34,200 nucleotides of DNA. Source: Lachnospiraceae bacterium C7. GTDB taxonomy: Bacteria > Bacillota > Clostridia > Lachnospirales > Lachnospiraceae. Under the pieces are notes generated by a model. It did no database searches, was not told the DNA's origin, and saw only the letters and a list, made by a program, of their open reading frames with translations. Position 1 is the first letter of the stretch; every line of letters starts with the position of its first letter. The stretch lies in NCBI GenBank assembly GCA_900113385.1, contig FOPE01000032.1, positions 1-34,200 on the forward strand. The letters are read 5' to 3'. The translations under genes and the position numbers were made by a program. Positions 19,024 through 33,068 of the stretch are shown here, piece after piece.

Positions 19024-19066
19024 AAAAGGTTCAGAATCTATTACATTATAGAGACTGAACCTTTTT
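19024..19066 (+). terminator. Terminator of transporter-GH3 operon
   Basis: AAAAGGTTCAG (19024-19034) pairs with CTGAACCTTTT (19055-19065), with an inner TCTAT/ATAGA stem, followed by a T run. Confidence 0.9.
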
Positions 19067-19220
19067 AATTTGGAAGATTTTATAGCTGGGAATCTAAAAC
19101 ACAGTCTGAAAGGCCCAAATACAGGCAAATATACTTTGGAAGGCCACCAATAACAGCCTAAAAATGCAAAAAGGGGACGGAAAAGTCGTTTTAGAAGTCA
19201 AAATTGAATTGTTTTTAGAC

Positions 19221-19463
19221 TGGAACCAGAAAATTTACGTGTAAAAATTAAAAAAATGAAAATTTACACGTAAGATTTTTGGAAAATGGAAACAAAAAAT
19301 AGAATTTCATTTGATTTTTAATAAAATTAATAAAAAAATAGGTGGAAAATGGAAATGATTTAATAAAAATTAGAGATTTTCGTATACTTATTGAAGATTA
19401 TTAAAAAATATTACGTGTAAAATCTAAAAAAAATAGATTTACCACGTAAAAAAGTGAGTTCCA
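19221..19463. repeat. Miniature inverted-repeat element, copy 1
   Basis: The left end is TGGAAC-N8-TTACGTG-N25-CACGTAA (19221-19273). The right end is TTACGTG-N25-CACGTAA-N8-GTTCCA (19411-19463). The two 39-nt dyads have identical length, and the outer GGAAC/GTTCC lie at identical offsets. The interior is A/T-rich and non-coding. A second element with the same geometry is at 32652-32889. Confidence 0.75.
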
Positions 19464-19610
19464 CTAGTATTTCTTATATAAAAAAATCATTGAAAAGTTT
19501 CCAAAACTATTTTGAAAGATAATTCAAAGATAATTCAAAAGTATTCTGATAATTCTCAGGCATTATTTCCCCAAAATACTTCAAATAATACCCAAGCAAT
19601 ACTTCTACCC

Positions 19611-19649
19611 CAAACACTACCTCCAAACACTACCTCCAAGCACTACCTC
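19611..19649. repeat. 13-bp tandem repeat, three units
   Basis: Units are CAAACACTACCTC twice, then CAAGCACTACCTC, with degenerate copies on both sides. Nothing else is recognised. Confidence 0.8.
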
Positions 19650-19743
19650 CAAGCAAAATAATTGCGCAAAATTAAAAAACATTCGACAACTAAAAAATAA
19701 AAAGGTATTATAATAGTAAAACATAGGATAGGAGTTAAGCATT

Positions 19744-21093
19744 ATGGAAAAAGACATTGAAAAAGATATGAAAAATCAAATTAAATCTAAAATTGTTAAT
19801 AACAACAGCAACCTTCAGCCAGGAAGCCCAAGCAACGGCAACACACAAATCAATACAGCAAAGCACTCTATTTTTAGAAGTTTGCCTTTTAAATTATTTA
19901 TGGCCATGGCCTTAGGAACGATATTAGGAATTGTATTTGAAAAAAACGCAAACAATGAAATTGTAAAAGGGGCCTTAAATGTAGTGGTAACAGTGAAATA
20001 TATTGTTTCCCAAATAATTAATTTTTGCGTGCCTCTTATAATCATAGGTTTTATTGCTCCATCAATTACAAAAATGGGGAAAAATGCGTCAAAGCTTTTG
20101 ATGGTTGCATTAGGTATTGCATATGTGTCATCAATCGGAGCAGCATTTTTTGCAACAGGGTCAGGATATATAATCCTTCCACATTTGTCGATAAATCCTG
20201 AAGTAGAAGGATTAAAAAAATTACCAGAGGTTGTATTTAAATTAAATATTCCACAGATTATGCCAGTAATGTCAGCACTATTTTTCTCAGTGATGATTGG
20301 ACTTGCAGCAACATGGACAAAAGCAGAAACAACGATAAAATTATTAGATGAATTCCAAAAAATAGTATTAGAATTGGTAAAAAAAATAGTTATTCCAATT
20401 TTGCCAATTTTGATCGGAGTAACATTTTTAGGATTAAGTTATGAGGGAACTATAACAAAACAATTGCCAATTTTTATAGTGATAATTTTAATTGTTATGC
20501 TAGGACACTATTTGTGGTTATTTTTGCTTTATTCAATTGCCGGATTATACAGCCAGAAAAATCCATTCAATATAATAAGAAACTATGTTCCAGCATATCT
20601 TACAGCAGTAGGAACAATGTCAAGTGCAGCAACATTGTCAGTTGCGCTAGATTGTGCAAAAAAATCAGAGCCAACTTTAAGAGACGACATGGTAGATTTT
20701 GGAATTCCATTATTTGCCAATGTTCATTTATGTGGTTCAGTAATGACAGAAACATTTTTTGTTATGGCGGTTTCAAAAATGTTATATGGAAGTTTTCCAA
20801 CTGTAACAAATATGGTTTTATTTTGTGTATTGCTAGGTGTTTTTGCGATAGGAGCGCCAGGAGTTCCAGGTGGAACAGTAATGGCATCACTAGGATTGAT
20901 TACAGGTGTGCTAGGATTTAATGAAACAGGAACAGCACTTATGCTCACAATATTTGCATTGCAAGATTCATTTGGAACAGCTTGTAATGTTACAGGAGAT
21001 GGCGCTTTAACATTGATTTTAACTGGATATGCTAAGAGAAAAGGCATCAAAGAAGCAAAAAATAATCCAAAAGATATTTTAGAAACAGCGTAA
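19744..21093 (+). CDS. Dicarboxylate/amino acid:cation symporter (DAACS family)
   Basis: Membrane protein of 449 aa in the GltP/SstT/DctA superfamily. The first ~45 residues are an Asn/Gln/Lys-rich hydrophilic extension, longer than usual. The core begins at FRSLPFKLFMAMALGTILGIVF. Family features include the first re-entrant loop AVGTMSSAATLSVAL, GSVMTETFFVMAVSKM, the second loop GAPGVPGGTVMASLG and the cation/substrate helix ALQDSFGTACNVTGDGALTLILTGYA. The ATG has AGGAG about 8 nt upstream, and a TATAAT box lies at 19709-19714. The substrate may be serine/threonine, glutamate or a C4-dicarboxylate. Its position just before serine acetyltransferase makes serine an attractive guess, not a demonstrated one. 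Confidence 0.9.
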   Translation: MEKDIEKDMKNQIKSKIVNNNSNLQPGSPSNGNTQINTAKHSIFRSLPFKLFMAMALGTILGIVFEKNANNEIVKGALNVVVTVKYIVSQIINFCVPLIIIGFIAPSITKMGKNASKLLMVALGIAYVSSIGAAFFATGSGYIILPHLSINPEVEGLKKLPEVVFKLNIPQIMPVMSALFFSVMIGLAATWTKAETTIKLLDEFQKIVLELVKKIVIPILPILIGVTFLGLSYEGTITKQLPIFIVIILIVMLGHYLWLFLLYSIAGLYSQKNPFNIIRNYVPAYLTAVGTMSSAATLSVALDCAKKSEPTLRDDMVDFGIPLFANVHLCGSVMTETFFVMAVSKMLYGSFPTVTNMVLFCVLLGVFAIGAPGVPGGTVMASLGLITGVLGFNETGTALMLTIFALQDSFGTACNVTGDGALTLILTGYAKRKGIKEAKNNPKDILETA

Positions 21094-21180
21094 ATACAAT
21101 TGAATAAATCATAGTAAAATGGTAGACTTATATAATCTAAAACTTTTGTGAAATACGAACACAAAGGATAGGAGGAAAAA

Positions 21181-22134
21181 ATGCATAAATTTGAAGAAAA
21201 AGATTTAGTAAGAGATATAGTTGAAAACATTTTAGCTGACTACAAAAATGGTAGAGATATAGATAAAATGACTGTTTTTCATCAACCTGATAGAGAAGCA
21301 ATAATTGATATCGTAAGAAAATTAATGAGAATTTTCTTCCCAGGATATTACAGAGATAAGGTTTACCGTTTTTATAGTGTAAGAAATAATGTATCTGTTT
21401 TGATAGAAGATGTAATGTATAATATGCAAAAACAGATAGCAATAGTATTGCACAACAAGTGCCAATTTGAATGTTGTGATGAAGATGATATTCAAAAAAC
21501 AGCTCAAGAGTTGACCTTTGAATTTTTCCAGAAGATTCCAAAAATTCGTGAATATTTAAATACAGATTTGCAGGCAACTTTCGATGGTGACCCAGCAGCA
21601 AATGGAAAAGACGAAATAGTATTGTGTTATCCAGGATTTTTGGCAACAACAATTTACAGAATTGCTCATGAATTGTTTGAATTGAAGGTTCCACTTATTC
21701 CAAGAATCATGACAGAATATGCTCATAGCAAAACAGGAATCGATATTCATCCAGGAGCAACAATTGGAAAATATTTCTTTATTGACCATGGAACGGGTAT
21801 CGTAGTAGGATCAACTACAACGATTGGGGAGCATGTAAAAGTGTACCAAGGCGTCACATTAGGTGCCCTTTCAACACGAGAAGGTCAGAAACTCCATGGT
21901 AAAAAGAGACATCCTACAATTGAAGATGATGTTACAATTTATGCAGGAGCATCAATTTTAGGCGGAGCAACAGTAATCGGAAGCAATTCAGTAATAGGAA
22001 GTAACGCATTTATTACCAAGGCTGTTGAAAAAAATTCTAGAGTAAGTATTCAAAATCAAAAATTATGCTGTAGACCTGGCAAAAAAACACAGGCTGAGCT
22101 AACAGATTTAAACTTAAATGACGGCTGGTATTAG
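21181..22134 (+). CDS. cysE: Serine O-acetyltransferase
   Basis: Makes O-acetylserine from serine and acetyl-CoA, the committed step of cysteine synthesis. The protein has 317 aa. The N-terminal helical domain is longer than in Bacillus CysE and resembles the EpsC/SAT type of many anaerobes. The C-terminal left-handed beta-helix shows TGIDIHPGATIGKYFFIDHGTGIVVGSTTTIGEHVKVYQGVTLGALS and hexapeptide repeats to about residue 290. GGAGG lies right before the ATG. A CTTTTGTG/CACAAAGG hairpin (about 21142-21166) stands next to the ribosome-binding site. With the sulfhydrylase at 24322-25596 it supplies an O-acetylserine route to sulfur fixation. A short ~45-bp direct repeat follows the gene. Confidence 0.95.
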   Translation: MHKFEEKDLVRDIVENILADYKNGRDIDKMTVFHQPDREAIIDIVRKLMRIFFPGYYRDKVYRFYSVRNNVSVLIEDVMYNMQKQIAIVLHNKCQFECCDEDDIQKTAQELTFEFFQKIPKIREYLNTDLQATFDGDPAANGKDEIVLCYPGFLATTIYRIAHELFELKVPLIPRIMTEYAHSKTGIDIHPGATIGKYFFIDHGTGIVVGSTTTIGEHVKVYQGVTLGALSTREGQKLHGKKRHPTIEDDVTIYAGASILGGATVIGSNSVIGSNAFITKAVEKNSRVSIQNQKLCCRPGKKTQAELTDLNLNDGWY

Positions 22135-22172
22135 TAATAAATAAAAAAATTGCTGTTTGTAAAAAAATAAAT

Positions 22173-22253
22173 TTAGAGACAAATTGCTAGAAACACAGCA
22201 AGTAATTTGAAGGAAACTTAGAGACGAGTGGCTAGAAACACAGCAAGTAATTT
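22173..22253. repeat. 36-bp direct repeat, period 45
   Basis: 22173-22208 and 22218-22253 match at 33 of 36 positions; the common tail is GCTAGAAACACAGCAAGTAA. Each copy can form a small AGC/GCT hairpin. The array runs up to the start of the U32-like gene, so it will be in that gene's leader. Confidence 0.8.
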
Positions 22254-22275
22254 ACAAGAAATTGAGGTAACATAA

Positions 22276-23202
22276 ATGGTTGATACACCAAAAAAAATTG
22301 CATATTTTCACCTTCCAGGGCTATTTGAATTTTATGAAATGTATAAGGTATTTTTGCCAATTTATAAAAAACATAGAAACTATTTTTATGATTGGTGTGA
22401 AATCGGCTCGATATATGGAGCTCCCACAGATTGTTTGTGGGGCGGTGGTCGTGTAGAATATGGCTCAGTTAATGAAAAAGAAGTTCTAGGACTGATGAAA
22501 AAATACGAAATTTCAGCGAGACTAACATTTAGCAATTCGCAGTTGAGACAAGAACATTTGCAGGATAAACAATGCAATGAATTGTGTGAATTATTTGAAA
22601 AAAATGCTGGAGTTAGTAGAAATAAGCCACGAAATGGAGTTATTATTCATTCAGAACTTTTATTAGAGTATATAAAAGAAAATTATCCAGATTTATATTT
22701 GGTGAGCTCAACCACAAAGGTGTTAACAGATTTTAGGAATTTAGAAAAAGAGCTACAGCGAGAAGATTTTTCTTATGTTGTGCCAGATTTTCGTTTAAAT
22801 AAATCTCTAAAAAAATTAGAACAACTAAATCAAAAAGAAAAAGATAAAGTAGAATTTTTATGTAATGAGTGTTGTTGGTATGGTTGCAAAGATAGAAAAC
22901 AGTGCTATGAAGAAGTGAGTTTTCGTAACTTAGGCGAAAAAGGAAACGGACATGTTTGCAAAGCGCCGAATGCAAAGGAAGGCTATAAATTTTCATTAGC
23001 AATGGAAAATCCAGGATTTATTTCTGTTAACGATATAGAAAATATCTATATGCCTATGGGATTTAGCAATTTTAAAATCGAAGGCAGAGGGCTTGGAAGT
23101 GCACTTATACTTGAATTTTTGCTTTATTATATGACGAAACCAGAATATCAAATACACGTAAGGGAAGAGATGTATCTCGATAATATGTTGGATTTGTTTT
23201 AG
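22276..23202 (+). CDS. Cysteine-rich U32-like TIM-barrel protein
   Basis: 308 aa with ten cysteines. The cluster C196-x2-CC-x3-C204-x5-C210, with C228 further on, follows a strand-like EFL segment. This is the place where U32-family proteins (UbiU/UbiV, TrhP) bind a 4Fe-4S cluster. FKIEGR at 266-271 is the U32 C-terminal signature. Between them, YLVSSTTKVLTDFRNLEKEL resembles barrel strands. No signal peptide. GAGG lies about 9 nt before the ATG at 22276. The gene follows cysE and precedes a HAD phosphatase on the same strand. U32 relatives act in oxygen-independent hydroxylation, tRNA modification or peptide degradation; which applies here is unknown. The family link rests on these motifs alone. 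Confidence 0.65.
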   Translation: MVDTPKKIAYFHLPGLFEFYEMYKVFLPIYKKHRNYFYDWCEIGSIYGAPTDCLWGGGRVEYGSVNEKEVLGLMKKYEISARLTFSNSQLRQEHLQDKQCNELCELFEKNAGVSRNKPRNGVIIHSELLLEYIKENYPDLYLVSSTTKVLTDFRNLEKELQREDFSYVVPDFRLNKSLKKLEQLNQKEKDKVEFLCNECCWYGCKDRKQCYEEVSFRNLGEKGNGHVCKAPNAKEGYKFSLAMENPGFISVNDIENIYMPMGFSNFKIEGRGLGSALILEFLLYYMTKPEYQIHVREEMYLDNMLDLF

Positions 23203-23301
23203 TGTAAAATTGTGAGAAAAATTAAAACAAAAAACAAAACAGATAAAACAAAAAATATAACACATATTGAGACAAACTATCCTTACAAGCGGAGGATTAT
23301 G

Positions 23302-24045
23302 ATGCAAAATTATGAAAACTTTTTATTTGATTTGTACGGAACGTTAGTTGATATTCGTACGAATGAAGATAGCCAAAAGCTGTGGGAAACAATGAGGTTA
23401 CTGTATGGATACGAAGGCGCTATTTATACTACTAAAGAATTGCAAGAGAAATATCATCAATTTGTTAGCGAAGAAAAAGCAAACGTAAGAAAACGTAATA
23501 GGGATAGAGAGTTTATAGACATTAACCTAGGCAAAGTATTTAAAAAATTATTTAAATATAAAAATGTTAATAGAGTGTCAGAAACTAAAATAAAAAATTT
23601 AGCGGCAACATTCAGAAGTATTTCCACCGATATGATTCAAGTCTATGATGGAGTGTATGAGTTGTTAGATTTTTTAAAGGAAAATGATAAAAAAGTAATT
23701 TTGTTATCGAATGCTCAGAGTTTATTCACATTAAATGAAATAAAAATGTTTGGTTTAGATAAATATTTTGATGATATTTTTATAAGCTCAGAATATGAAG
23801 TTAGTAAACCAGACAAAGAATTTTTTATGATACCAATAAAAAAATATAATCTAGATCCTCAAAAAACTGTTATGATAGGAAATGATTTTATTTCTGATAT
23901 GCAAGGTGCGGTAAAGGCCAATTTGCATGGGATTTATATTCACCAGGAGATTTCAACACCAGTAGATGATGAAGAAAAAATTGTGGCAGATTATAAAATA
24001 ATGGATGGAAACGTAAAAAAAATAATAGAGTTTTTGAAGGGTTAG
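23302..24045 (+). CDS. HAD-superfamily hydrolase (YjjG-like phosphatase)
   Basis: 247 aa from the second ATG of ATGATG at 23299-23304. GGAGG (23291-23295) is 6 nt from 23302 but only 3 nt from 23299. An in-frame stretch upstream to 23212 is Lys/Thr-rich and not needed. HAD motifs are in order: I FDLYGTLVD near residue 8-16, II LLSNAQ, III the lysine in SKPDKEFF, IV MIGNDFISDM. An inserted helical cap lies between motifs I and II (ENDSQKLWETMRLLYG region). It is likely a small-molecule or nucleotide phosphatase, but the substrate cannot be inferred. Confidence 0.88.
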   Translation: MQNYENFLFDLYGTLVDIRTNEDSQKLWETMRLLYGYEGAIYTTKELQEKYHQFVSEEKANVRKRNRDREFIDINLGKVFKKLFKYKNVNRVSETKIKNLAATFRSISTDMIQVYDGVYELLDFLKENDKKVILLSNAQSLFTLNEIKMFGLDKYFDDIFISSEYEVSKPDKEFFMIPIKKYNLDPQKTVMIGNDFISDMQGAVKANLHGIYIHQEISTPVDDEEKIVADYKIMDGNVKKIIEFLKG

Positions 24046-24102
24046 ATTTGATTTATAGTTTTAGAAATAACCATAAAATGATTTTTTACATTAACTAAAA
24101 AT

Positions 24103-24148
24103 AGCTGATTATAAATAGCTAGATAATACTAGCTAGATATAATCAGCT
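24103..24148. terminator. 20-bp palindrome, probable bidirectional terminator
   Basis: 24103-24122 pairs with 24129-24148 at 18 of 20 positions (AGCTGATTATA/TATAATCAGCT outside, TAGCTAG/CTAGCTA inside) around the loop ATAATA. It lies between two convergent genes. The plus-strand trailing sequence TTAATTTATTTT is only moderately T-rich. Confidence 0.65.
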
Positions 24149-24159
24149 TAATTTATTTT

Positions 24160-24282
24160 GTATATATTAATTAATAACATTCACGCATTAATCTATCGTA
24201 GTATATATTAATTAATAACATTCACGCATTAATCTATCGTAGTATATATTAATTAATAACATTCATGCATTAATTTACCGTG
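24160..24282. repeat. 41-bp tandem repeat, three copies
   Basis: Copies start at 24160, 24201 and 24242. The first two are identical over 41 nt; the third has diverged in its second half. Each contains TTAATTAA and a GCATTAAT motif. The array lies between the convergent HAD and sulfhydrylase genes. Confidence 0.9.
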
Positions 24283-24321
24283 CTACATATTAAGTATATA
24301 AAATACATATGTTAAAGTATT

Positions 24322-25596
24322 TTATAAATAAGTTAATGCATTTTTGATATCGTCTAGGATATCATCAACGTTTTCAATACCAACTGATAATCTAACTAAA
24401 TCAGGAGCTACGCCACCTTGAATTAATTCTTCATCAGTTAATTGTCTATGAGTTGAAGAAGCTGGATGCAAGATACAAGTTCTAGCGTCAGCAACATGAG
24501 TTGCAATCATAACAACCTTTAGATGTTTCATGAATTCTTCGGCTTTTTTTCTACCACCTTTCACACCAAAAGCAATAACACCACATGTTCCGTTAGGCAT
24601 ATATTTTTGAGCAAGATCGTAGTATTTATTTCCCTTAAGGCCAGGATAATTTACCCAAGCAACCTTGTCGTTAGATTCTAAAAATTCAGCAACTTTTTGT
24701 GCATTGCTACAATGTCGTTCCATACGAACTGCAAGGGATTCGATTCCAAGATTTAATAAATAAGCGTTCATTGGAGCAGGTGTAGAACCTAAATCACGCA
24801 TTAACTGAGCAGTTGCTTTAGTGATAAAAGCACCTTCGTTTCCGAATTTAGTTGCGTAAGTAATTCCGTGATAAGACTCATCAGGTGTAGTCAATCCAGG
24901 GAATTTATCTTTGTGGGCCATCCAATCAAATTTACCGCTATCAACTATACAGCCACCAACTGTAGCATCATGTCCATCTAAATATTTAGTAGTAGAATGA
25001 GTGACAATATCAGCACCCCATTCAAAAGGTCTACAATTAATAGGTGTAGCAAAAGTATTATCGATAATAAGTGGTACACCGTGTTTGTGAGCTGCATCAG
25101 CAAATCTCTCAATATCAAATACAATTAAAGCTGGGTTAGCGATTGTTTCACCAAATACAGCCTTTGTGTTAGGTTTAAAAGCTTGTTCAAGTTCTTCATC
25201 GCTACAATCAGGCTCAACGAAAGTGAAATCAATTCCCATTTTTTTCATAGTAACATTAAATAAGTTAAAACTTCCACCATAAATAGAAGAAGAAGCTACA
25301 ACGTGATCGCCAGCTTGGGCAATATTAAAAATTGCAAAAAAATTGGCAGCCTGTCCAGAAGCTGTAAGCATTGCTGCTGTTCCGCCTTCTAAGTCAGCTA
25401 ACTTTTTGGCAACGTAGTCAGAAGTTGGGTTTTGTAAACGAGTATAAAAATATCCTTCAGCTTCTAAATCAAAAAGCTTACCCATATCTTCACTAGTGTC
25501 ATACTTAAAAGTAGTACTTTGAATAATAGGAATCATTCTTGATTCGCCATTCTTAGGTTGATATCCACTGTGAATGCATTTTGTTTCTTGTTTCAT
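24322..25596 (-). CDS. metY: O-acetylhomoserine/O-acetylserine sulfhydrylase
   Basis: PLP enzyme of the Cys/Met metabolism family that makes homocysteine (or cysteine) from the O-acetylated amino acid and sulfide. 424 aa from the ATG at 25596. The frame reads back to a TTG at 25614, but that codon is part of the GGAGGAAC ribosome-binding site. Diagnostic parts are SGYQPKNGESRMIPIIQSTTFKYD, the aromatic pair YFYTRLQNPTSD, SGQAANFFAI, DNTFATPINCRPFEWGADIV, the PLP lysine in HSTTKYLDGHD, and the C-terminal RLSVGIENVDDILDDI. It is convergent with the cysE-U32-HAD group. No SAM riboswitch or T-box was seen in its short leader. MetY fits better than MetB or MetC because of its length and the indel pattern before the lysine. 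Confidence 0.93.
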   Translation of the reverse strand: MKQETKCIHSGYQPKNGESRMIPIIQSTTFKYDTSEDMGKLFDLEAEGYFYTRLQNPTSDYVAKKLADLEGGTAAMLTASGQAANFFAIFNIAQAGDHVVASSSIYGGSFNLFNVTMKKMGIDFTFVEPDCSDEELEQAFKPNTKAVFGETIANPALIVFDIERFADAAHKHGVPLIIDNTFATPINCRPFEWGADIVTHSTTKYLDGHDATVGGCIVDSGKFDWMAHKDKFPGLTTPDESYHGITYATKFGNEGAFITKATAQLMRDLGSTPAPMNAYLLNLGIESLAVRMERHCSNAQKVAEFLESNDKVAWVNYPGLKGNKYYDLAQKYMPNGTCGVIAFGVKGGRKKAEEFMKHLKVVMIATHVADARTCILHPASSTHRQLTDEELIQGGVAPDLVRLSVGIENVDDILDDIKNALTYL

Positions 25597-25640
25597 ATTA
25601 TGTTGTTCCTCCAATTATTAAATAAATTTTCATAGATTCA

Positions 25641-25669
25641 ATTGTACTCTAAAATTTTTGAAGTTTCAA
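25641..25669 (-). promoter_or_regulatory. Promoter of metY
   Basis: On the minus strand there is TTGAAA (25664-25669), a 17-nt spacer and TACAAT (25641-25646). The leader is about 40 nt, too short for a riboswitch. Confidence 0.8.
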
Positions 25670-25711
25670 CATATTTCGGAAAAATCATAGCAAAGTTGTA
25701 GGCTTTTTAAT

Positions 25712-25751
25712 AAAAAAACGGTATAAATTAAATTTAATCTAATTTATACCG
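25712..25751 (-). terminator. Terminator of the second AraC gene
   Basis: CGGTATAAATTA (25719-25730) pairs perfectly with TAATTTATACCG (25740-25751). On the minus strand seven T follow the stem. Confidence 0.85.
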
Positions 25752-25823
25752 CAAAATAAAATTATAAGCCAAAATAAAATTAAAAGCCAAAATAAAATTA
25801 TAAGCCAAAATAAAATTAAAAGC
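25752..25823. repeat. 18-bp tandem repeat, four units
   Basis: Units of CAAAATAAAATTATAAGC alternate T and A at one position (units 1 and 3 versus 2 and 4), so a 36-bp pair was duplicated. A partial fifth unit runs into the stop region of the AraC gene. It lies between that gene and its terminator and is transcribed. Confidence 0.9.
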
Positions 25824-25832
25824 CAAAACAAT

Positions 25833-26957
25833 TTATTCAGTTGAAAAAGGAACAAATGAATTGTCCACTTGCTGTTTCTTTCGATAAGCTAAAGGCGACA
25901 TTTTGTATTCATTTCTAAAAACTCTAGAAAAATGATCCGCAGAGTTATATCCGACAAGTTCAGCAATTTCGCTAATTTTTATATCAGTGTTTTCTAAGTA
26001 GCTAACTGCATCTTTAAGTCTAAGGCGTTTCATTAGTTCTGTAAAAGTAAAACCTGTATTTTGCTTAATAAGATTGCATAGATATGGTTCACTATAGTGA
26101 AAAAAATTCGCTAAAGAAGAAAGGGTAAGAGACTGATAATTGTGCTGAATGTATTGGAGCACAAGAGAAAAATCAGAGTCCATTTCATAGTTATAAAAGC
26201 GAACAGTTTTACTGTAATTACGCATAAGTTCTGTAAAAATTAGATTGACAATTGCATTGCAACAGGTGTTGCTATAATTATCAGTTCGAATACTTTCAAT
26301 AAGTAGACGATGAAGCATAGCCCTCATTCCATAGCCATTTCCCGAAAAGAACAACAGATAATTGGAACGATCAGTTCCTTTTAAAATTTGTCGGAAAAAG
26401 TATGAAAGTAAATCTTGCCGACTTATGAGAGGAAAAAATGCTGTATCAAAAGAACTTTTTCGTATACATAATGTGTAAACGGTAGAGTCGTCTTCGATTA
26501 TAAAATCATGAGTAGAACCTGGTGCAATTATGCAAAGTTCTCCCTCTTGCATTACGTGATTTTCATCTTCAAAAATAAAAGTTCCGTTTCCTTTTGCAAC
26601 GTAATTAACTTCAAAATAATTGTGCTTGTGTGAAAAACGTCTAGTATATCTTGGATGACGAATAGTAAAAACGTCGGAAGCATTTGGAATTATTGTGTCT
26701 TCACTAACTTTTTTTTGCATAGGTGAACCAATATGCGATGTAAGTTGCATAGGAATTTTGTTAATAATCTCCTCAAATTCATCTTCATCCATGGTTTCAA
26801 AATTTCGAGGAATCTTAAATTCTGCAGGAATATCTGTAAGCATTCCAAGTTCGGCCATTCGATTAGTCATTTCCGTAAATTGTAATTTAGTTCCTGTTTT
26901 TAAAAAATAGTTTTTTAATTCTGTTTGTAATTTTCCATATGTTGTATATCCTACCAT
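25833..26957 (-). CDS. AraC-family regulator of the beta-PGM/GH3 module
   Basis: 374 aa. An N-terminal ~125-residue segment of unknown role (MVGYTTYGKLQTELKNYF...) precedes a cupin-type sensor (RRFSHKHNYFEVNYVAKGNGTFIFE). The AraC double HTH fills roughly the last 100 residues (LTLSSLANFFHYSEPYLCNLIKQNTG; ISEIAELVGYNSADHFSRVFRNEYKMSPLAYRKK). AAGGAG lies 6 nt before the ATG. It is divergent from pgmB, and the gap between them contains the bipartite motif shared with the rhamnoside genes. The HxHNYxE sensor core also occurs in the rha regulator, suggesting related ligand-binding pockets. The inducer is unknown; a beta-glucoside or phosphorylated glucose derivative is a reasonable guess from the neighbours. 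Confidence 0.9.
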   Translation of the reverse strand: MVGYTTYGKLQTELKNYFLKTGTKLQFTEMTNRMAELGMLTDIPAEFKIPRNFETMDEDEFEEIINKIPMQLTSHIGSPMQKKVSEDTIIPNASDVFTIRHPRYTRRFSHKHNYFEVNYVAKGNGTFIFEDENHVMQEGELCIIAPGSTHDFIIEDDSTVYTLCIRKSSFDTAFFPLISRQDLLSYFFRQILKGTDRSNYLLFFSGNGYGMRAMLHRLLIESIRTDNYSNTCCNAIVNLIFTELMRNYSKTVRFYNYEMDSDFSLVLQYIQHNYQSLTLSSLANFFHYSEPYLCNLIKQNTGFTFTELMKRLRLKDAVSYLENTDIKISEIAELVGYNSADHFSRVFRNEYKMSPLAYRKKQQVDNSFVPFSTE

Positions 26958-26994
26958 AGTAATCTCCTTGTAACGGGCTAAAACCCTTCATTAA

Positions 26995-27023
26995 ATTATA
27001 CTATGCCCCCTTAGCTAAGACAA
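26995..27023 (-). promoter_or_regulatory. Promoter of the second AraC gene
   Basis: On the minus strand there is TTGTCT (27018-27023), a 17-nt spacer and TATAAT (26995-27000). Confidence 0.7.
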
Positions 27024-27068
27024 GAATTCACAAAAAAGTTTATTAAATATACACAAAGTTCACATTTT

Positions 27069-27083
27069 AAACACAATGTGTTT
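27069..27083. promoter_or_regulatory. Palindrome AAACACA-A-TGTGTTT
   Basis: Perfect 15-bp odd palindrome upstream of the araC promoter and 20 nt before the bipartite motif. It may be an operator. Its T run also makes it resemble a weak plus-strand terminator. Confidence 0.4.
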
Positions 27084-27102
27084 TTTGGTGAAAATGATTA
27101 AA

Positions 27103-27145
27103 GACATATTAAAAAATGTCGTAAAGAGTAGAAAAAGTTACATGG
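27103..27145 (+). promoter_or_regulatory. Bipartite sugar-locus motif, copy 3
   Basis: ATTAAAAAATGTCG begins at 27108, and ACATGG is at 27140-27145 after 18 nt. Here the left part is a full dyad GACAT-N8-ATGTC (27103-27120). GACATATT is also the core of the rha activator elements. The likely -10 is around 27151-27158 (TATGTAAT), so the motif covers the -35 region. Confidence 0.65.
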
Positions 27146-27218
27146 AGGTATATGTAATTTTACTTTAAAATTTAGTATATCAGGAGAGAAATATACAAAA
27201 ATTATTGGAGGAAAAGAA

Positions 27219-27863
27219 ATGGTACGCAGTAGTAAAAAAAATTGGATTTTTGATTTAGATGGAGTAATTGTTTTTACAGATAAATTTCATTATTTAGCAT
27301 GGAAGAAAATGGCAAAAACAATTGGAATAGATTTAGATGAGAAAACTAACAATCGCTTAAGAGGAGTAAGTAGAGCAGATAGTTTAGAGATTATTTTAGA
27401 ACAATATAAAGGTGAGCCATTATCTCAGAAAAAGAAAAATGAGTTAATGGAAGAAAAAAATAATTTATATAGAGAATATTTAAACGAAATGACACCAAAT
27501 GATGTTTCAGATGACGTGAAAAAAACGTTAAGGGTTTTGAGAGAAAGAGGAGATAAATTAGCTATTGGATCTTCAAGTAAAAATGCCCGTTTAATTTTAG
27601 AAAAAGTTGGACTTACAGATGCATTTGATGAAATCGCAGATGGAACAAATATTAAAAAAGGTAAGCCAGATCCAGAAGTTTTTCTAAAGGCAGCAGAATT
27701 TTTACATAAAGCACCGGAAAAATGTATTGCAGTAGATGACGCATTTTCTGGAATTGATGCAGCAAAAAATGCAAATATGAAGGCGATAGGAATTGGTGAT
27801 TCTGCAAGATATGAGAAAGCAGATTATAAAATAAATAAGTTTTCAGATTTGTTAGCTATATAG
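27219..27863 (+). CDS. pgmB: Beta-phosphoglucomutase
   Basis: HAD enzyme converting beta-glucose-1-phosphate to glucose-6-phosphate. 214 aa, the normal length. Motif I IFDLDGVIVFTDKFHYLAWKKMA includes the nucleophile and acid aspartates. The cap has NNRLRGVSRADSLEIIL with the arginine that binds the substrate phosphate. IGSSSKNA, KKGKPDPEVF and AVDDAFSGIDAAKNA complete the active site. GGAGG lies 7 nt before the ATG at 27219. It stands divergent to an AraC regulator and 117 nt before a GH3 gene. The usual supplier of beta-glucose-1-phosphate, a GH65 phosphorylase, is not in this window. Confidence 0.94.
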   Translation: MVRSSKKNWIFDLDGVIVFTDKFHYLAWKKMAKTIGIDLDEKTNNRLRGVSRADSLEIILEQYKGEPLSQKKKNELMEEKNNLYREYLNEMTPNDVSDDVKKTLRVLRERGDKLAIGSSSKNARLILEKVGLTDAFDEIADGTNIKKGKPDPEVFLKAAEFLHKAPEKCIAVDDAFSGIDAAKNANMKAIGIGDSARYEKADYKINKFSDLLAI

Positions 27864-27893
27864 ACTATAGTAATGATAAATGATACAATTTAA

Positions 27894-27932
27894 TTGTGTG
27901 AATGATTTGTTGAAAAACTAAACACCACACAA
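27894..27932 (+). promoter_or_regulatory. Inverted repeat between pgmB and GH3 gene
   Basis: TTGTGTG (27894-27900) and CACACAA (27926-27932) are perfect arms with a 25-nt gap. No T run follows, so it is more likely an mRNA processing or binding site than a terminator. Confidence 0.35.
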
Positions 27933-27980
27933 TGGCAAAACGTATAAAGTAATATAAGGGTTAAGGAGAAATAACGCAAT

Positions 27981-30296
27981 ATGAGTAAACAATTAAAACA
28001 TAATCGAGATATTAAAAAATTAGTAAGTCAGATGACTTTAGAAGAAAAAGCTAATATGTGTTCAGGAATAGATTTTTGGCATCTTGGTTCAGTAGATAGA
28101 CTAGGTGTTCCAAGCGTGATGGTAAGTGATGGCCCTCACGGATTGCGAAAACAAGACGAAGAAGCAGACCACTTAGGAATTAACGATAGTATTAAAGCGG
28201 TTTGTTTTCCACCAGCATGTTTGTCAGCATGTTCATTTGATAAGGATTTAATGGAAAAATATGGTGAAACTGTTGGAGACGAGGCAATGGCCAATGATTT
28301 ATCCGTTGTATTAGGACCAGCGGTAAACATTAAAAGATCACCACTTTGCGGACGAAATTTTGAATACTACTCAGAAGATCCATTTTTGTCAGGAGAAGTA
28401 GCAACAGCTTTTATAAAAGGTGTTCAGTCAAAAAATGTAGGTACATCAATTAAACATTTTGCTGCAAACAGTCAAGAATACTATCGAATGAGTTGTTCGT
28501 CAGATGCTGATGAAAGAACATTAAGAGAAATATATTTCCCTAGCTTTGAAAAAGCAGTTAAAGAGGCAAAACCATATACAGTAATGTGTTCTTACAATAG
28601 AATAAATGGAACTTATGCTTCAGAAAATAAATGGCTTTTGACAGATGTTTTAAGAAAAGAATGGGGCTTCGATGGATATGTCATGTCAGATTGGGGTGCT
28701 GTTTCAGATAGAGTCAAAGGAATAAAAGCAGGATTAGATCTTGAAATGCCAAGCTGCAATGGAATAAATGATAAAAAAATTGTGGAAGCCGTTAAAAACG
28801 GGGATTTAGATGAAAAAATCCTAGACAAAACAGTGGAAAGAATTTTAGATGTGGTATTTAGATACTACGATAATAGAAAGAAACAAGAATTTACCTTAGA
28901 GGCGGATCATAATGAGGCACGCCATATTGCTGAGGAATCAATGGTTCTTTTGAAAAATGAAGAAAATATTTTACCATTGAAAAAGGATGAAAAAGTAGCC
29001 TTTATTGGTGCATATGCTAAAAAGCCACGTTTCCAAGGTGGTGGAAGCTCTCACATTAATAGTTTTAAAGTAGATAATGCCTTTGATACAGCTTCAGAGA
29101 TTGCTACGGAGACTATAAGATATGCAAAAGGATTTGCAGGAGATAAAGATGTATATGATGAGAATCTTGCAAAAGAAGCGATTGACCTTGCAAAAACAGT
29201 TGATAAAGTAGTTATTTTTGCAGGATTGCCAGATAGCTTTGAGTCTGAGGGATATGATAGAACTCATATGAGAATGCCAAAGGCGCAGAATAGATTGATA
29301 AAAGAAATTGCAGAAGTAAGTAAGAAAGTTGTTGTAGTTTTACATAATGGCTCACCAGTTGAAATGCCATGGAACAATGATGTTTCAGGAATTTTAGAAG
29401 CATATTTAGGTGGCCAAGCAGGTGGAAGTGCTGTTGCAAAAATCTTATATGGAGAAGTTAATCCATCAGGAAAATTAGCAGAAACAATGCCTATTAAATT
29501 GTCAGATAATCCATCATATTTAAATTTTGGTGGAGTATCACATGTTAATTATCAAGAAGGTGTTTTTGTAGGATATAGATACTATGATTCTAAAGATGCA
29601 GAAGTATTGTATCCATTTGGACACGGACTTTCATATACAAGTTTTGAATATAGCAATATGAAGTTAGACAAAGATAAAATATCGGAAAATGATAAATTAA
29701 TAGTATCTGTTGATGTGAAAAATACAGGAAAAGTATTCGGAAAAGAAATTGTGCAGGTATATGTATCTGATTTGACAAAGCAAGTAGTTAGACCAATTCA
29801 TGAATTAAAAGGTTTTGCAAAAGTTGCCTTAGAACCAGGTGAAACAAAAACTGTGAAAATTGAATTAGACTTTAGAAGCTTTGCATGGTACAACGAAGAA
29901 ATTCATGATTGGTACGCAGCATCAGGAAAATATGAAATACAGGTTGCAGCATCTTCTAGGAATATAAAAGAAGTTGCAGTTGTAGAATTTGATGCTCAAA
30001 AAGAGTTGCCTATAAAAGTAGATATTAATACTACTGTAGGTGAGCTTTTGTTAAATAAAAAAACAAAGAAATATGGAAAAGATTTGCTAAAAGCTTTAGA
30101 TGCCTTCTTTGGGGGACACCAAGATACAGAAGAAAAACCAGATGCAGCAGATGAATATGAAACTGATGAAGCTGTTTCTATGGAGATGGATAAAGCTATG
30201 GGATTGTCAATGCCATTACGCAATCTTATTACATTTGGAATTTATTCAGAAAAAGAATTAACAGAAAAAATTGAAGAGATAAAAAAAGCAGTTTAA
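27981..30296 (+). CDS. GH3 beta-glucosidase
   Basis: Cytoplasmic enzyme of 771 aa. The layout is barrel (VMVSDGPHGLR 47-56, RNFEYYSEDP, SIKHFAANSQE), nucleophile Asp237 in GYVMSDWGAVSDR, then the alpha/beta sandwich with the acid/base glutamate in ESEGYDR (421-427). A fibronectin-III-like domain follows (GKEIVQVYVSDLTKQVVRPIHELKGF). An extra ~110-residue tail includes an acidic stretch and MPLRNLITFGIYSEKELTEKIEE, seen in many clostridial GH3 proteins. It removes beta-linked glucose, or in some relatives xylose or other sugars. No signal peptide. AAGGAG lies 12 nt before the ATG. It is probably co-transcribed with pgmB and controlled by the AraC regulator upstream. Confidence 0.94.
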   Translation: MSKQLKHNRDIKKLVSQMTLEEKANMCSGIDFWHLGSVDRLGVPSVMVSDGPHGLRKQDEEADHLGINDSIKAVCFPPACLSACSFDKDLMEKYGETVGDEAMANDLSVVLGPAVNIKRSPLCGRNFEYYSEDPFLSGEVATAFIKGVQSKNVGTSIKHFAANSQEYYRMSCSSDADERTLREIYFPSFEKAVKEAKPYTVMCSYNRINGTYASENKWLLTDVLRKEWGFDGYVMSDWGAVSDRVKGIKAGLDLEMPSCNGINDKKIVEAVKNGDLDEKILDKTVERILDVVFRYYDNRKKQEFTLEADHNEARHIAEESMVLLKNEENILPLKKDEKVAFIGAYAKKPRFQGGGSSHINSFKVDNAFDTASEIATETIRYAKGFAGDKDVYDENLAKEAIDLAKTVDKVVIFAGLPDSFESEGYDRTHMRMPKAQNRLIKEIAEVSKKVVVVLHNGSPVEMPWNNDVSGILEAYLGGQAGGSAVAKILYGEVNPSGKLAETMPIKLSDNPSYLNFGGVSHVNYQEGVFVGYRYYDSKDAEVLYPFGHGLSYTSFEYSNMKLDKDKISENDKLIVSVDVKNTGKVFGKEIVQVYVSDLTKQVVRPIHELKGFAKVALEPGETKTVKIELDFRSFAWYNEEIHDWYAASGKYEIQVAASSRNIKEVAVVEFDAQKELPIKVDINTTVGELLLNKKTKKYGKDLLKALDAFFGGHQDTEEKPDAADEYETDEAVSMEMDKAMGLSMPLRNLITFGIYSEKELTEKIEEIKKAV

Positions 30297-30369
30297 AAAG
30301 CAATTAAAAAATTAGTAAAAAAGGCTGTTTAAAAGAGTAGTTTGAAAAAGTAGTTTAAAAGAATTAATA

Positions 30370-30398
30370 TTGTAGAAATTTAGAAACTATGATATACT
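30370..30398 (+). promoter_or_regulatory. Promoter of perR
   Basis: TTGTAG (30370-30375), a 17-nt spacer and TATACT (30393-30398). Confidence 0.7.
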
Positions 30399-30403
30399 AA
30401 AAT

Positions 30404-30418
30404 TAATAATCATTACTA
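30404..30418 (+). promoter_or_regulatory. PerR/Fur-type operator
   Basis: TAATAAT-C-ATTACTA is a 7-1-7 dyad with one mismatch, close to the Bacillus PerR box (TTATAATNATTATAA). It lies 6 nt after the -10 box, covering the expected transcription start, as in autorepression. Further downstream GTTCAT/ATGAAC forms a leader hairpin. Confidence 0.65.
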
Positions 30419-30495
30419 TTTACGGGAGAGAGTGTTCATTGCGCTAGTTTTTGCATGAACTAAAAAGAATTATATGAAAGAGATAGAGGTATGTC

Positions 30496-30882
30496 ATGGC
30501 TTTAAAAAAAAGTAAGCAAAGAACAGCAATATTAGAATTTTTAAAGACACGTAAAGATCATCCAACAGCTGATGTAGTGTATCAAAAGGTAAAGGCAGAA
30601 CAGCCTAAACTTAGTTTAGGTACAGTGTATAGAAACCTTACAGTATTAGCAGATATCGGAGAGATACAAAGACTAAGAGTGGGTGATGGAACAGAGCATT
30701 TTGATGCAGATATTTCAGAGCACAATCATTTTGTCTGTGAGAAATGCGGAAGTGTCATCGATTTGCCACAGATTCCTATTTTAGATGAAATCGACGGTGA
30801 AATGAATAAGGAATTTGATGGTACAATATCAGGCCATAAAATGTATTTTTATGGTGTTTGTAAAAAATGCCAAAAAGCATAA
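30496..30882 (+). CDS. perR: PerR-type peroxide-sensing repressor (Fur family)
   Basis: 128 aa. Winged helix at the N-terminus (QRTAILEFLKTRKDHPTADVVYQKV, LSLGTVYRNLTVLADIGEI), then the metal-binding dimer domain. All five residues that bind the regulatory metal in B. subtilis PerR have counterparts: His22, Asp70, His76, His78 and Asp89. An aspartate at the last position is the PerR mark, whereas Fur has glutamate there. Structural zinc ligands are CEKC (81-84) and CKKC (122-125). The start is the ATG at 30496 with GAGG upstream. Its own promoter carries a PerR-like box. It should control peroxide-defence genes, none of which is in the window. Confidence 0.92.
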   Translation: MALKKSKQRTAILEFLKTRKDHPTADVVYQKVKAEQPKLSLGTVYRNLTVLADIGEIQRLRVGDGTEHFDADISEHNHFVCEKCGSVIDLPQIPILDEIDGEMNKEFDGTISGHKMYFYGVCKKCQKA

Positions 30883-30895
30883 CTACAAGAATGCC

Positions 30896-30942
30896 AAAAA
30901 CAATAAGACTAGCAAGGATAGTAAAAACAATAAGACTAGCAA
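30896..30942. repeat. 20-bp direct repeat after perR
   Basis: AAAAACAATAAGACTAGCAA occurs at 30896-30915 and 30923-30942 (period 27), followed by related A-rich copies. It lies in the perR 3' region before the terminator. Confidence 0.85.
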
Positions 30943-30959
30943 AAGCAACAAGAACAATC

Positions 30960-30999
30960 AAAAAGACGAAGAAGTGAAATTCATTTCTTCGTCTTTTTT
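30960..30999 (+). terminator. Terminator of perR
   Basis: A 14-bp stem (30960-30973 with 30985-30998, core GACGAAGAA/TTCTTCGTC) with a TGAA/TTCA inner pair and a T run. Strong and A/T-symmetric, so it probably works in both directions. Confidence 0.92.
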
Positions 31000-31077
31000 A
31001 ATAATTTTTTTAATACTTTTTAAATATCTTACTTTAATATGTTTGTATTAAAATGTTTGTATTAAAATTTTGCTTTA

Positions 31078-31485
31078 TTATTTTCTGCTATTATTTTTGG
31101 CTCTAAGAGCTTTTTTCTTCTTAATTAAATTACCATCTGCCATGTATTTTTCAAAAGCATTACGTAGTCTTGGATGTTTAAATAAAAAATGTATAGCTGG
31201 CGACTTACTTTTTGAGACCATAACCCATTTTCCATCGTGACTTGTAATGGAAATGTTTTGAATATGAGGATTCTCGTTAGACTTTACAGTATAATTTGGA
31301 ACCTTATCTGCAAAACGTCTAGTTAATTCGAGATGTTCTAGATATTCAGGATATGTGTAATAAATATTGTCTTCACAAAAAGTTTTTGCTAATGATAAAG
31401 CAACAGGATGTTTTTCGAATTCTTCTTTTGTTAAAATAGGTACTTCATCTATTAAAGGTGAGGTACGTGTGCAAGTTCGTGCCAC
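31078..31485 (-). CDS. Unrecognised 135-aa protein, possibly a gene remnant
   Basis: The frame ends at 31078 and can start only at the GTG at 31485, with a stop codon three codons further upstream. The only ribosome-binding candidate is a weak AAGAGA, and no ATG occurs near the N-terminus. The sequence is soluble and charged, with PILTKEEFEKHPVALSLAKTF, YPEYLEHLELTRRFADKVP, HDGKWVMVSKSKSPAIHFLF and a very basic tail KKKKALRAKNNSRK. It does not match a family I can name. Codon use resembles its neighbours, and the composition is not that of a shadow frame. It may be a short intact gene or the C-terminal remnant of a longer one. Confidence 0.55.
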   Translation of the reverse strand: MARTCTRTSPLIDEVPILTKEEFEKHPVALSLAKTFCEDNIYYTYPEYLEHLELTRRFADKVPNYTVKSNENPHIQNISITSHDGKWVMVSKSKSPAIHFLFKHPRLRNAFEKYMADGNLIKKKKALRAKNNSRK

Positions 31486-31528
31486 ATCTCTTGTTTAGAG
31501 TGGTTTTATATGAGGAGGCTAAAAATGT

Positions 31529-32485
31529 ATGAAAGTAAAAGGCAAACTTCATAAGTTTTTAGTAGTATTAGTGATATCAAGTTTTGTATTTGCAGTTGTA
31601 GGATGTGGAAAAAACTCCCAGCAAGAACTTAAAAAAACAACATCAAAAAAGCAAGATAATAAAAATTCAACTGCTAAGATGCAGGATAAAAAATCTTCTG
31701 AAAAAGCAATATTAAAGAAGAAAGATGCCGGTAAGATGGCGATGAAGTATAAAGACATCAAAAATCTTCAATTTGCTTGCTTTGATGAAGATGACAACTG
31801 GGTTACGGTAATTGACATAGATGAAAATGGCAATTTTACAGGAAAGTATTTTGATTACACTAAATTGAATAGCGTTAAACAAAAAGAGGCAGTAGACCAA
31901 GACGATGCAGTAAGTCAAGGTAATGTAGCAGGCCAAGGTAATGCAGTAAGCCAAGGCGAGGCAGTAGACCAAGGCGATGCAGTAGGCCAGGGCAATGTGA
32001 AAAATCAAAATAATGTGGCAGCAGATTGTGTGAAGTTTAAGGGAAAGTTTGCTGCACTTGAGTACTGTGATAAAGAAATGGTAACTACAAGCATTACAAA
32101 TTTGGAATATACGCAAGAGTCAATTTCAGGCAGAAAACCACAAACAATATCTGAAAGTAAGCAGGTTTTCTTCTATATAAAAGGTGCCGACATAAAGGGC
32201 ATTAATAAAAAAGAAGATAATAAAGAAGATATTAATAAAAAAGATATTAATAAAAAAGCTATCGATAAACAATCTACTGATATTGAAAGTGATAAAAAGC
32301 TTGATGAAATTAAAAAAGCGTATATAAAGAGTGCAGGAAAATATGATTTAAAACTTAAAAATAAAACAAAAATGCCATATTATGGAATGTATCTAAAAGA
32401 CATAGATACTGGATACATCAGTGATAAGAAGGGAACTTTTGATTACCTTGATGTGACTGGAAGTAACCAAAAAAAATGGAAATAG
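31529..32485 (+). CDS. Lipoprotein with Gln-rich hexapeptide repeats
   Basis: 318 aa, secreted and lipid-anchored. A basic N-terminus, hydrophobic core and lipobox VVGC (Cys about residue 27) precede a Lys/Ser/Gln-rich linker. Residues 120-161 are seven hexapeptides of the type (E/D/N)-(A/V)-x-x-Q-(G/D), e.g. EAVDQD, DAVSQG, NAVSQG. A second low-complexity tract lies near residues 225-255 (repeated INKKDINKK). The rest contains beta-strand-like pieces (FACFDEDDNWVTVIDIDENGNFTGKYFDY; MPYYGMYLKDIDTGYISDKKGTFDYLDVTG). GAGGAGG is followed by ATGTATG. The second ATG (31529) opens this frame; the first (31525) opens only nine codons. Function unknown. Confidence 0.82.
   Translation: MKVKGKLHKFLVVLVISSFVFAVVGCGKNSQQELKKTTSKKQDNKNSTAKMQDKKSSEKAILKKKDAGKMAMKYKDIKNLQFACFDEDDNWVTVIDIDENGNFTGKYFDYTKLNSVKQKEAVDQDDAVSQGNVAGQGNAVSQGEAVDQGDAVGQGNVKNQNNVAADCVKFKGKFAALEYCDKEMVTTSITNLEYTQESISGRKPQTISESKQVFFYIKGADIKGINKKEDNKEDINKKDINKKAIDKQSTDIESDKKLDEIKKAYIKSAGKYDLKLKNKTKMPYYGMYLKDIDTGYISDKKGTFDYLDVTGSNQKKWK
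31886..32011 (+). repeat. 18-bp coding repeat, seven units
   Basis: Seven in-frame 18-nt units with the core GCAGTA-N3-CAAGGC, encoding the hexapeptides of the lipoprotein. A likely site for slippage and length variation between strains. Confidence 0.8.
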
Positions 32486-32487
32486 CC

Positions 32488-32527
32488 AAAAAGACACTTA
32501 GAAGGTAGAACTTTTAGGTGTCTTTTT
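32488..32527 (+). terminator. Terminator of the repeat lipoprotein gene
   Basis: AAAAAGACAC (32488-32497) pairs with GTGTCTTTTT (32518-32527). The stem continues inward through TTAGAAG/CTTTTAG with wobble pairs. Confidence 0.9.
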
Positions 32528-32651
32528 AGATGATTGAAGCAAGCTAGGGCAAGAACTAGCTACCGCTGTTAGGCATCTGCCACCAGTAAGCCAGAACCAG
32601 CCAAATCAGGCTAAGGGAACGATTCACTCCCCAAAAATCAAGAAAAAAAGA

Positions 32652-32889
32652 ACTGGAACTCGAAATCTTACGTGTAAAAATGAAAAAAGTGAAAAAATCC
32701 ACGTAAGAAAAATAGAAAAAGTGTAAAATTATATAGATAACCCTGTTTAAAGCTTATATCAAAGACAAAAAAACGGCTGAAAATCCACTGAAATCGCTCA
32801 AAATGGCCAATTTCGTTTCCAAAACAGCAAAACCTTACGTGTAAAAATGGAGTTTTTGAGAATTTCCACGTAAAAATCCCAGTTCCGGT
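32652..32889. repeat. Miniature inverted-repeat element, copy 2
   Basis: The left end is ACTGGAAC-N8-TTACGTG-N25-CACGTAA (32652-32706). The right end is TTACGTG-N25-CACGTAA-N8-GTTCCGGT (32835-32889). Every spacing equals that of the element at 19221-19463. The interior differs in sequence. The right terminal GTTCCGG is repeated in the adjoining tandem array. Confidence 0.75.
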
Positions 32890-33068
32890 CAAAAAACGCC
32901 CCCTGAACAGACCAAATTGTTCAATAGCCATCAATCCACTCTGGTTCCGGTTCGAAAACGCCCCCTGAATTAGCCAAAACGTCCAATAAGCCACCAATCC
33001 ACTTCAGTTCCGGTCCCAAAACGCCCCGCCTAATTCGCAAACCAAGCCAAAACGTCTCAGAAATCACT
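32881..33068. repeat. 62-63-bp degenerate tandem repeat, three units
   Basis: Units begin at 32881, 32943 and 33006. Each starts (A/G)GTTCCGGT, has AAAACGCCCC about 10 nt later, then a GCCAAA-type tract; the first two end near CAATCCACT. The first unit begins inside the right end of the inverted-repeat element. Confidence 0.8.

Follow-up and report, generated by a model that had tools for sequence, protein, structure and literature searches.

Two paired-dyad elements of a Lachnospiraceae genome and the phased dyad arrays that accompany a PD-(D/E)XK-like gene family

Two papers describe the REP/RAYT system, or REPtron, in which the gene for a REP-associated tyrosine transposase (RAYT) is flanked by its own palindromic repeats (repetitive extragenic palindromes, REPs), copies of the repeat are scattered between genes and the repeat changes with the protein (PMC2817692, PMC8266576). 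The ends of Tn7-like elements are presented, in part of another account, as arrays of inverted sites for the transposase TnsB in intergenic DNA (PMC8649781), and a report on tandem interspaced guide RNA (TIGR)-Tas systems describes tandem units on the upstream or the downstream side of a single effector gene, with a unit sequence that varies by locus (PMC12045711). Here we analyse two intergenic elements, W1 and W2, each built from a pair of inverted-repeat dyads and located in a 34,200-nt stretch of Lachnospiraceae bacterium C7 (contig FOPE01000032.1, positions 1 to 34,200; hereafter the window).

The results indicate, with a probability that we put at roughly two in three, that W1 and W2 represent dispersed copies, lacking a gene, of the cognate binding-site arrays of an uncharacterised PD-(D/E)XK-like protein family, in a two-part system resembling REP/RAYT. 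The arrays tend to accompany genes of this family, mostly follow the period of the DNA helix, lack covariation between their arms and are dispersed, and the family conserves a candidate active site. Since gene and array are associated and close orthologues have half-site words in common, we infer that the family protein itself binds its own array. With less certainty, cleavage by this protein at the arrays may drive their copying to new places.

Paired dyads in the window and their copies in the genome

The window contains four dyads of the form TTACGTG-N25-CACGTAA, starting at 19235, 19411, 32668 and 32835 on the forward strand and arranged as two GGAAC-bounded pairs, with GGAAC-N8 to the left and N8-GTTCC to the right of each pair in both elements. 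All four begin with TTACGTGTAAAA, and none arose in 100 dinucleotide-preserving shuffles. This geometry, including starts 176 and 167 nt apart, had been reported by an earlier, sequence-only reading and is present as described; the outer coordinates given there (19221-19463 and 32652-32889) identify the two elements, but their ends are off by one to three bases. From GGAAC to GTTCC, the minimal spans are 241 bp for W1 and 232 bp for W2, and the alignment of 39 half-sites from the window genome yields the consensus TTACGTG(T/G)AAA(A/T)TT. The components of both elements are:

19222..19462, no strand: W1, GGAAC to GTTCC; resembles two copies on contig C40 within 19211-19505
19222..19226, forward strand: GGAAC flanking motif of W1, 8 bp outside dyad 1
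19235..19273, no strand: W1 dyad 1, TTACGTG-N25-CACGTAA
19411..19449, no strand: W1 dyad 2, 176 bp from W1 dyad 1
19458..19462, forward strand: GTTCC flanking motif of W1, 8 bp outside dyad 2
32655..32886, no strand: W2, GGAAC to GTTCC
32655..32659, forward strand: GGAAC flanking motif of W2
32668..32706, no strand: W2 dyad 1
32835..32873, no strand: W2 dyad 2, 167 bp from W2 dyad 1
32882..32886, forward strand: GTTCC flanking motif of W2

A search of the 2.84-Mb draft genome, as the sequence-only reading had proposed, returned 20 exact dyads, against none for a reversed control pattern at N25. Two further dyads with one mismatch bring the total to 22, mostly in pairs, at 12 contig places: ten pairs 167-208 bp apart and two dyads left single because the contig ends there. 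An identical stretch of 107 bases occurs at the end of contig C21 and at the start of C72, which probably belong to one copy, giving 11 places; the copies at the C56 end and the C91 start (176 of 184 bases identical) are separate. Restriction to only two copies, which had been set out as an argument against mobility, is hence not what the genome presents. Matches with two or three mismatches were left uncounted because at up to three mismatches the dyad is no commoner than its reversed control (77 vs 125); some of these matches are sites of the type of a second paralogue (contig C34). No exact dyad was found in the 59 other genomes searched. Four single, partnerless dyads on viral contigs were taken as chance matches.

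The youngest group of copies (C21/C72, C56, C91 and C86) presents 93-96% identity in alignments up to 343 bp long, the identical C21/C72 overlap apart, with two shorter alignments at 90% between C21 and C56; a full copy spans ~370 bp in C86. Beyond common end points the flanks are unrelated, both on the left (C21, C56, C86) and on the right (C72, C91, C86). Inspection by eye revealed no target-site duplication at the window-genome copies, and the window family likewise lacked a visible terminal inverted repeat at its ends. Two further copies on C40 (L018, 14343-14705 and 17427-17789), located ~3 kb apart, are 82% identical over 364 bp and have similar left flanks.

Phased dyad arrays beside a nuclease-like gene family

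One dyad pair of the window genome lies ~600 bp upstream of a gene at 7742-8605 of contig C40, whose uncharacterised product of 288 aa is predicted to contain a PD-(D/E)XK-like domain. Family loci were examined with an array detector that is supplied with no motif and groups dyads located within 1 kb of one another that have the same arm word and the same loop length. Arrays of at least three dyads were detected at 52 of 88 family loci (L149 and L173, which repeat L057 and L056, are left out of the 88), against 0 of 30 FUR-gene control loci from the same genus and 0 of 264 shuffles; for at least two dyads, the corresponding counts were 75 of 88, 1 of 30 and 17 of 264. The sampling frame drawn from genomes chosen for TTACGTG dyads contributed 21 arrays in 30 loci, and the two frames not chosen in this way contributed 15 in 30 and 16 in 28. 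The half-site word is common to close orthologues and often different between paralogues. The 52 arrays comprise 48 distinct raw 7-mers, which is an upper bound on the number of arm words, given that register and axis split one word into several.

A dyad search of genome contigs identified 29 stretches, 20 of which are arrays or copies of one, in ten genomes; the remaining nine were dropped as lone dyads (L025, L029, L031, L033, L034, L035, L041, L044 and L050). Members of the family are present in all ten array-bearing genomes, compared with 29 of 60 genomes of the window's genus and 25 of 146 of its order, and a TTACGTG- or CTACGTG-type array lies beside a family gene in seven of them, three of which are the loci that led to the link and one of which, G093, is a weak case. 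No family gene with such an array beside it was found in G084 and G085, nor was one of these arrays present at the four of ten family genes looked at in G091. Proteins associated with TTACGTG-type arrays do not form a single clade: with 9 of the 11 labelled rows represented in the tree, 7 changes were counted, and 21 of 500 shuffles were as low.

The modal periods of the 52 arrays cluster at 51-54, 62-64 and 72-75 bp, with single arrays elsewhere between 32 and 106 bp. The Rayleigh R at 10.5 bp is 0.78 (p ~1e-14 assuming independent arrays, which holds only partly), and thinning to proteins less than 40% identical leaves 19 arrays with an R of 0.85 (p ~1e-6). Two arrays are off phase by more than 0.2 turn, and the long pair spacings of the window family are also phased (8 distinct values, p ~0.003). 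In arrays of at least four dyads, agreement of arm positions within dyads is no higher than between dyads (3758 dyad-columns). Because the periods are mostly helically phased and the arms do not covary, the dyads look like double-stranded protein sites; the same lack of covariation led us to reject a hairpin reading. Unusually short periods, close to four and to three turns, were noted for L164 (41 bp, 10 dyads) and L171 (32 bp, 5 dyads), respectively. The proposal of the sequence-only reading that the dyads are paired sites for a DNA-binding protein finds support in this phasing, in the absence of covariation and in a nuclease-like gene family flanked by such sites. Its statement that the middle of the elements is not under selection is only partly true, as the length of the middle is helically phased.

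The tandem layout, with interiors that vary and a nuclease gene alongside, is also reminiscent of guide-RNA arrays read into small RNAs, similar to those of clustered regularly interspaced short palindromic repeats (CRISPR) or TIGR. We consider this explanation very improbable, given that the arms do not covary and the spacing tracks the DNA helix. The Nop domain had no Pfam match at E up to 1 in the four members listed in full and was absent among 25 of the 40 Pfam families listed for 24 members, and the gene-side interiors of G097 are partly duplicated (20 of 24 distinct, mean identity 0.50).

The family comprises 503 homologues at E up to 0.001, 120 of them listed, and combines a predicted N-terminal helix/three-strand/helix part with a C-terminal PD-(D/E)XK-like part. 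The tree and the residue counts drew on 80 of the 88 proteins, those in which 180 or more residues were aligned. In these, the candidate active-site pattern E...PD...E is kept and the candidate nuclease residues are nearly invariant; the conserved motifs of the family are RSKSE, PDF and WEH. Pfam matches of the four members listed in full included no transposase family. Rpn recombination-promoting nucleases were rejected for lack of matches to their models (no Pfam match in the same four members and no NCBIfam match at E up to 0.01 in 24). Searches with the N-terminal part returned no significant fold match, with lambda integrase and the MBD domain appearing only at E ~1 to 2.4, and an arm-binding-domain match fell below threshold in 1 of 24 members (E 0.019). 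The Treponema gene beside a six-dyad array (L045, 1270-2045) is broken by a frameshift.

The C-terminal part matches the PADLOC candidate system PDC-S68 and HEAT_CxxC_PDDEXK (E ~1e-28 to 1e-6 in three members). Together with changing words and a patchy distribution (29 of 60 genomes of the window's genus and 25 of 146 of its order, with a stricter cut-off for the order), these matches would suit an anti-phage system in which invading DNA is the target of the nuclease and the arrays on the chromosome serve to hold the enzyme, to regulate it or to act as its decoy. However, two long open frames from the order search that match the same nuclease part (L169, 1,232 aa; L170, 1,213 aa) have no array of at least three dyads nearby, L169 presenting none and L170 two dyads 404 bp apart. 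Such a system would also leave the dispersal of gene-less copies unexplained, and we judge it improbable.

Dispersal, movement and surroundings of the arrays

Cognate sites are not confined to the vicinity of the gene. The genome G097 encodes one family gene and contains 60 cognate dyads with up to one mismatch, against 5 in the reversed control; these dyads form arrays that flank the gene on either side and occur on at least four contigs. The second paralogue of the window genome has a word of its own, of the CTACGCKC type, which flanks the gene on either side and recurs in three clusters on C34. Copies of up to ~320 bp with 93-100% identity are scattered in two Butyrivibrio species, beside older copies near 70%. 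Among the four copies of WCD3002 that are more than 90% identical, two occupy places common with MB2005, one stands opposite a nearly empty site (322 bp vs 10 bp between the matching flanks) and the fourth opposite other DNA. Another Butyrivibrio site was rejected as an empty site; MB2005 there carries ~2.7 kb that includes an IS6-like gene and a stretch resembling the neighbouring gene.

Mobility is suggested by near-identical copies with sharp ends and by one nearly empty site. The sequence-only reading had suggested a family of miniature inverted-repeat transposable elements (MITEs), and had asked for target-site duplications and empty sites. The dispersed, gene-less and near-identical copies with sharp ends and unrelated flanks agree with that suggestion, as does the pair of occupied and nearly empty Butyrivibrio sites. 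By eye, however, the eight Butyrivibrio copies revealed no target-site duplication either, and the window-family ends lack a visible terminal inverted repeat.

In Butyrivibrio, two observations suggest a rival to movement by the nuclease-like protein: GTAGTGTCAAAT/ATTTGACACTAC is found at or just past the right end in seven of eight near-complete Butyrivibrio copies, and it also adjoins the IS6-like transposase gene in MB2005. A transposase may therefore have helped the Butyrivibrio copies move. Taken further, the arrays would be passengers of classical DDE insertion sequences or of their MITEs, with dyads and nuclease gene irrelevant to movement. This is unlikely in our assessment: the other end of those copies has no match to GTAGTGTCAAAT/ATTTGACACTAC, which was likewise not found in the DNA examined of copies L038, L042, L043 and L192; a second end of the insertion sequence-like element was looked for and not found; the ends of the window family look different by eye; and the link between gene and array would be left unexplained.

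The position of the arrays relative to genes bears on a further alternative. The best 1-kb cluster lies 5' of the family gene in 37 of 52 arrays and 3' in 15. Six of the eight Butyrivibrio copies, representing five distinct sites (L186, L187, L189, L023, L024 and L037, with L186 and L024 being one site in two species), have their left end 11-18 bp upstream of the ATG of a frame of at least 211 codons, by a Shine-Dalgarno-like stretch; L026 and L038 lack this arrangement by the same test. A site-specific regulator binding an array upstream of its own and other genes, with the dispersed arrays as its regulon and the nuclease fold as a side issue, would account for these positions. Yet the candidate nuclease residues are nearly invariant, the same word flanks the gene on both sides at seven loci and in G097, and the next listed frame to the right of W1 and W2 lies ~280 and ~420 bp beyond their ends, respectively, all of which makes a regulator an unlikely explanation.

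W1 lies between genes for a family 3 glycoside hydrolase and a dicarboxylate symporter, and W2 between two frames without a Pfam match at E 0.001. Both elements lie 3' of terminator-like hairpins, recognised by reading the sequence. An Rfam scan of the window returned a tRNA only. A 41-bp tandem repeat (3.4 copies, 24160-24301) is, as far as seen, unrelated to the dyads. The features adjoining the two elements are:

19024..19066, forward strand: terminator-like hairpin and T-run after the glycoside hydrolase gene upstream of W1, read from the sequence with no terminator program
19463..19505, no strand: right extension of W1, which the two C40 copies also have; a GTTTCC motif lies at 19497-19502
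32488..32527, forward strand: terminator-like hairpin and T-run after the gene upstream of W2, read in the same manner
32879..33027, no strand: 2.4 tandem copies of a 62-bp unit (~six helical turns) with GTTCCGG; the repeat overlaps W2 at its right end

A proposed mechanism and its relation to described systems

Under the two-part system proposed here, tandem dyads of inverted 7-8 bp half-sites beside a family gene would constitute the binding array, and their whole-turn spacing would align a protein oligomer along one face of double-stranded DNA. Gene-side and scattered sites would belong to one system, as RAYT transposases and REP repeats do, and cleavage at the arrays would lead to copying and to sharp-ended insertions without target duplications. 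More tentatively, these systems might represent an undescribed class of mobile or selfish DNA, in which PD-(D/E)XK nucleases bind phased half-site arrays, cut, and drive intergenic copying with or without the gene, with fast-diverging specificities across Lachnospiraceae and other gut bacteria, including Treponema. Word searches of open PubMed Central papers did not find such a system described. If correct, this would provide a large, unnamed protein family with a partner and a testable role, and would extend the enzymes linked to dispersed bacterial repeats by a class of nucleases. The many natural versions, with different half-site words and whole-turn spacings, would make the recognition code directly testable.

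Several described systems resemble the arrays in part. The candidate defence proteins PDC-S68 and HEAT_CxxC_PDDEXK match the C-terminal nuclease-like part, but PDC-S68 does so only with the end of profiles of ~1,200 positions, and the two proteins of such length identified here lack an array. As in TIGR-Tas, tandem units that vary by locus lie beside one gene, whereas here no Nop domain was found among the Pfam matches listed, the units are phased with the DNA helix, their arms do not covary and gene-less copies exist. Like MITEs, the copies are short, gene-less, dispersed, intergenic and sharp-ended, with one nearly empty site, but no target duplication was seen and the window family presents no visible terminal inverted repeat of a parent transposase. 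The TnsA protein of Tn7 is a PD-(D/E)XK nuclease. In contrast to Tn7-like ends, the gene beside the array does not encode a DDE transposase, dyad periods are mostly 51-85 bp and gene-less arrays are scattered. In REP/RAYT, too, a gene lies beside its own repeats and cognate repeats are dispersed. RAYTs, however, are HuH enzymes acting on single-stranded REPs, in which the palindrome follows a GT(A/G)G head, whereas the family described here has a predicted PD-(D/E)XK-like part and arrays with double-helix phasing and arms that do not covary. By analogy, this family would work like RAYT and REP with no component in common.
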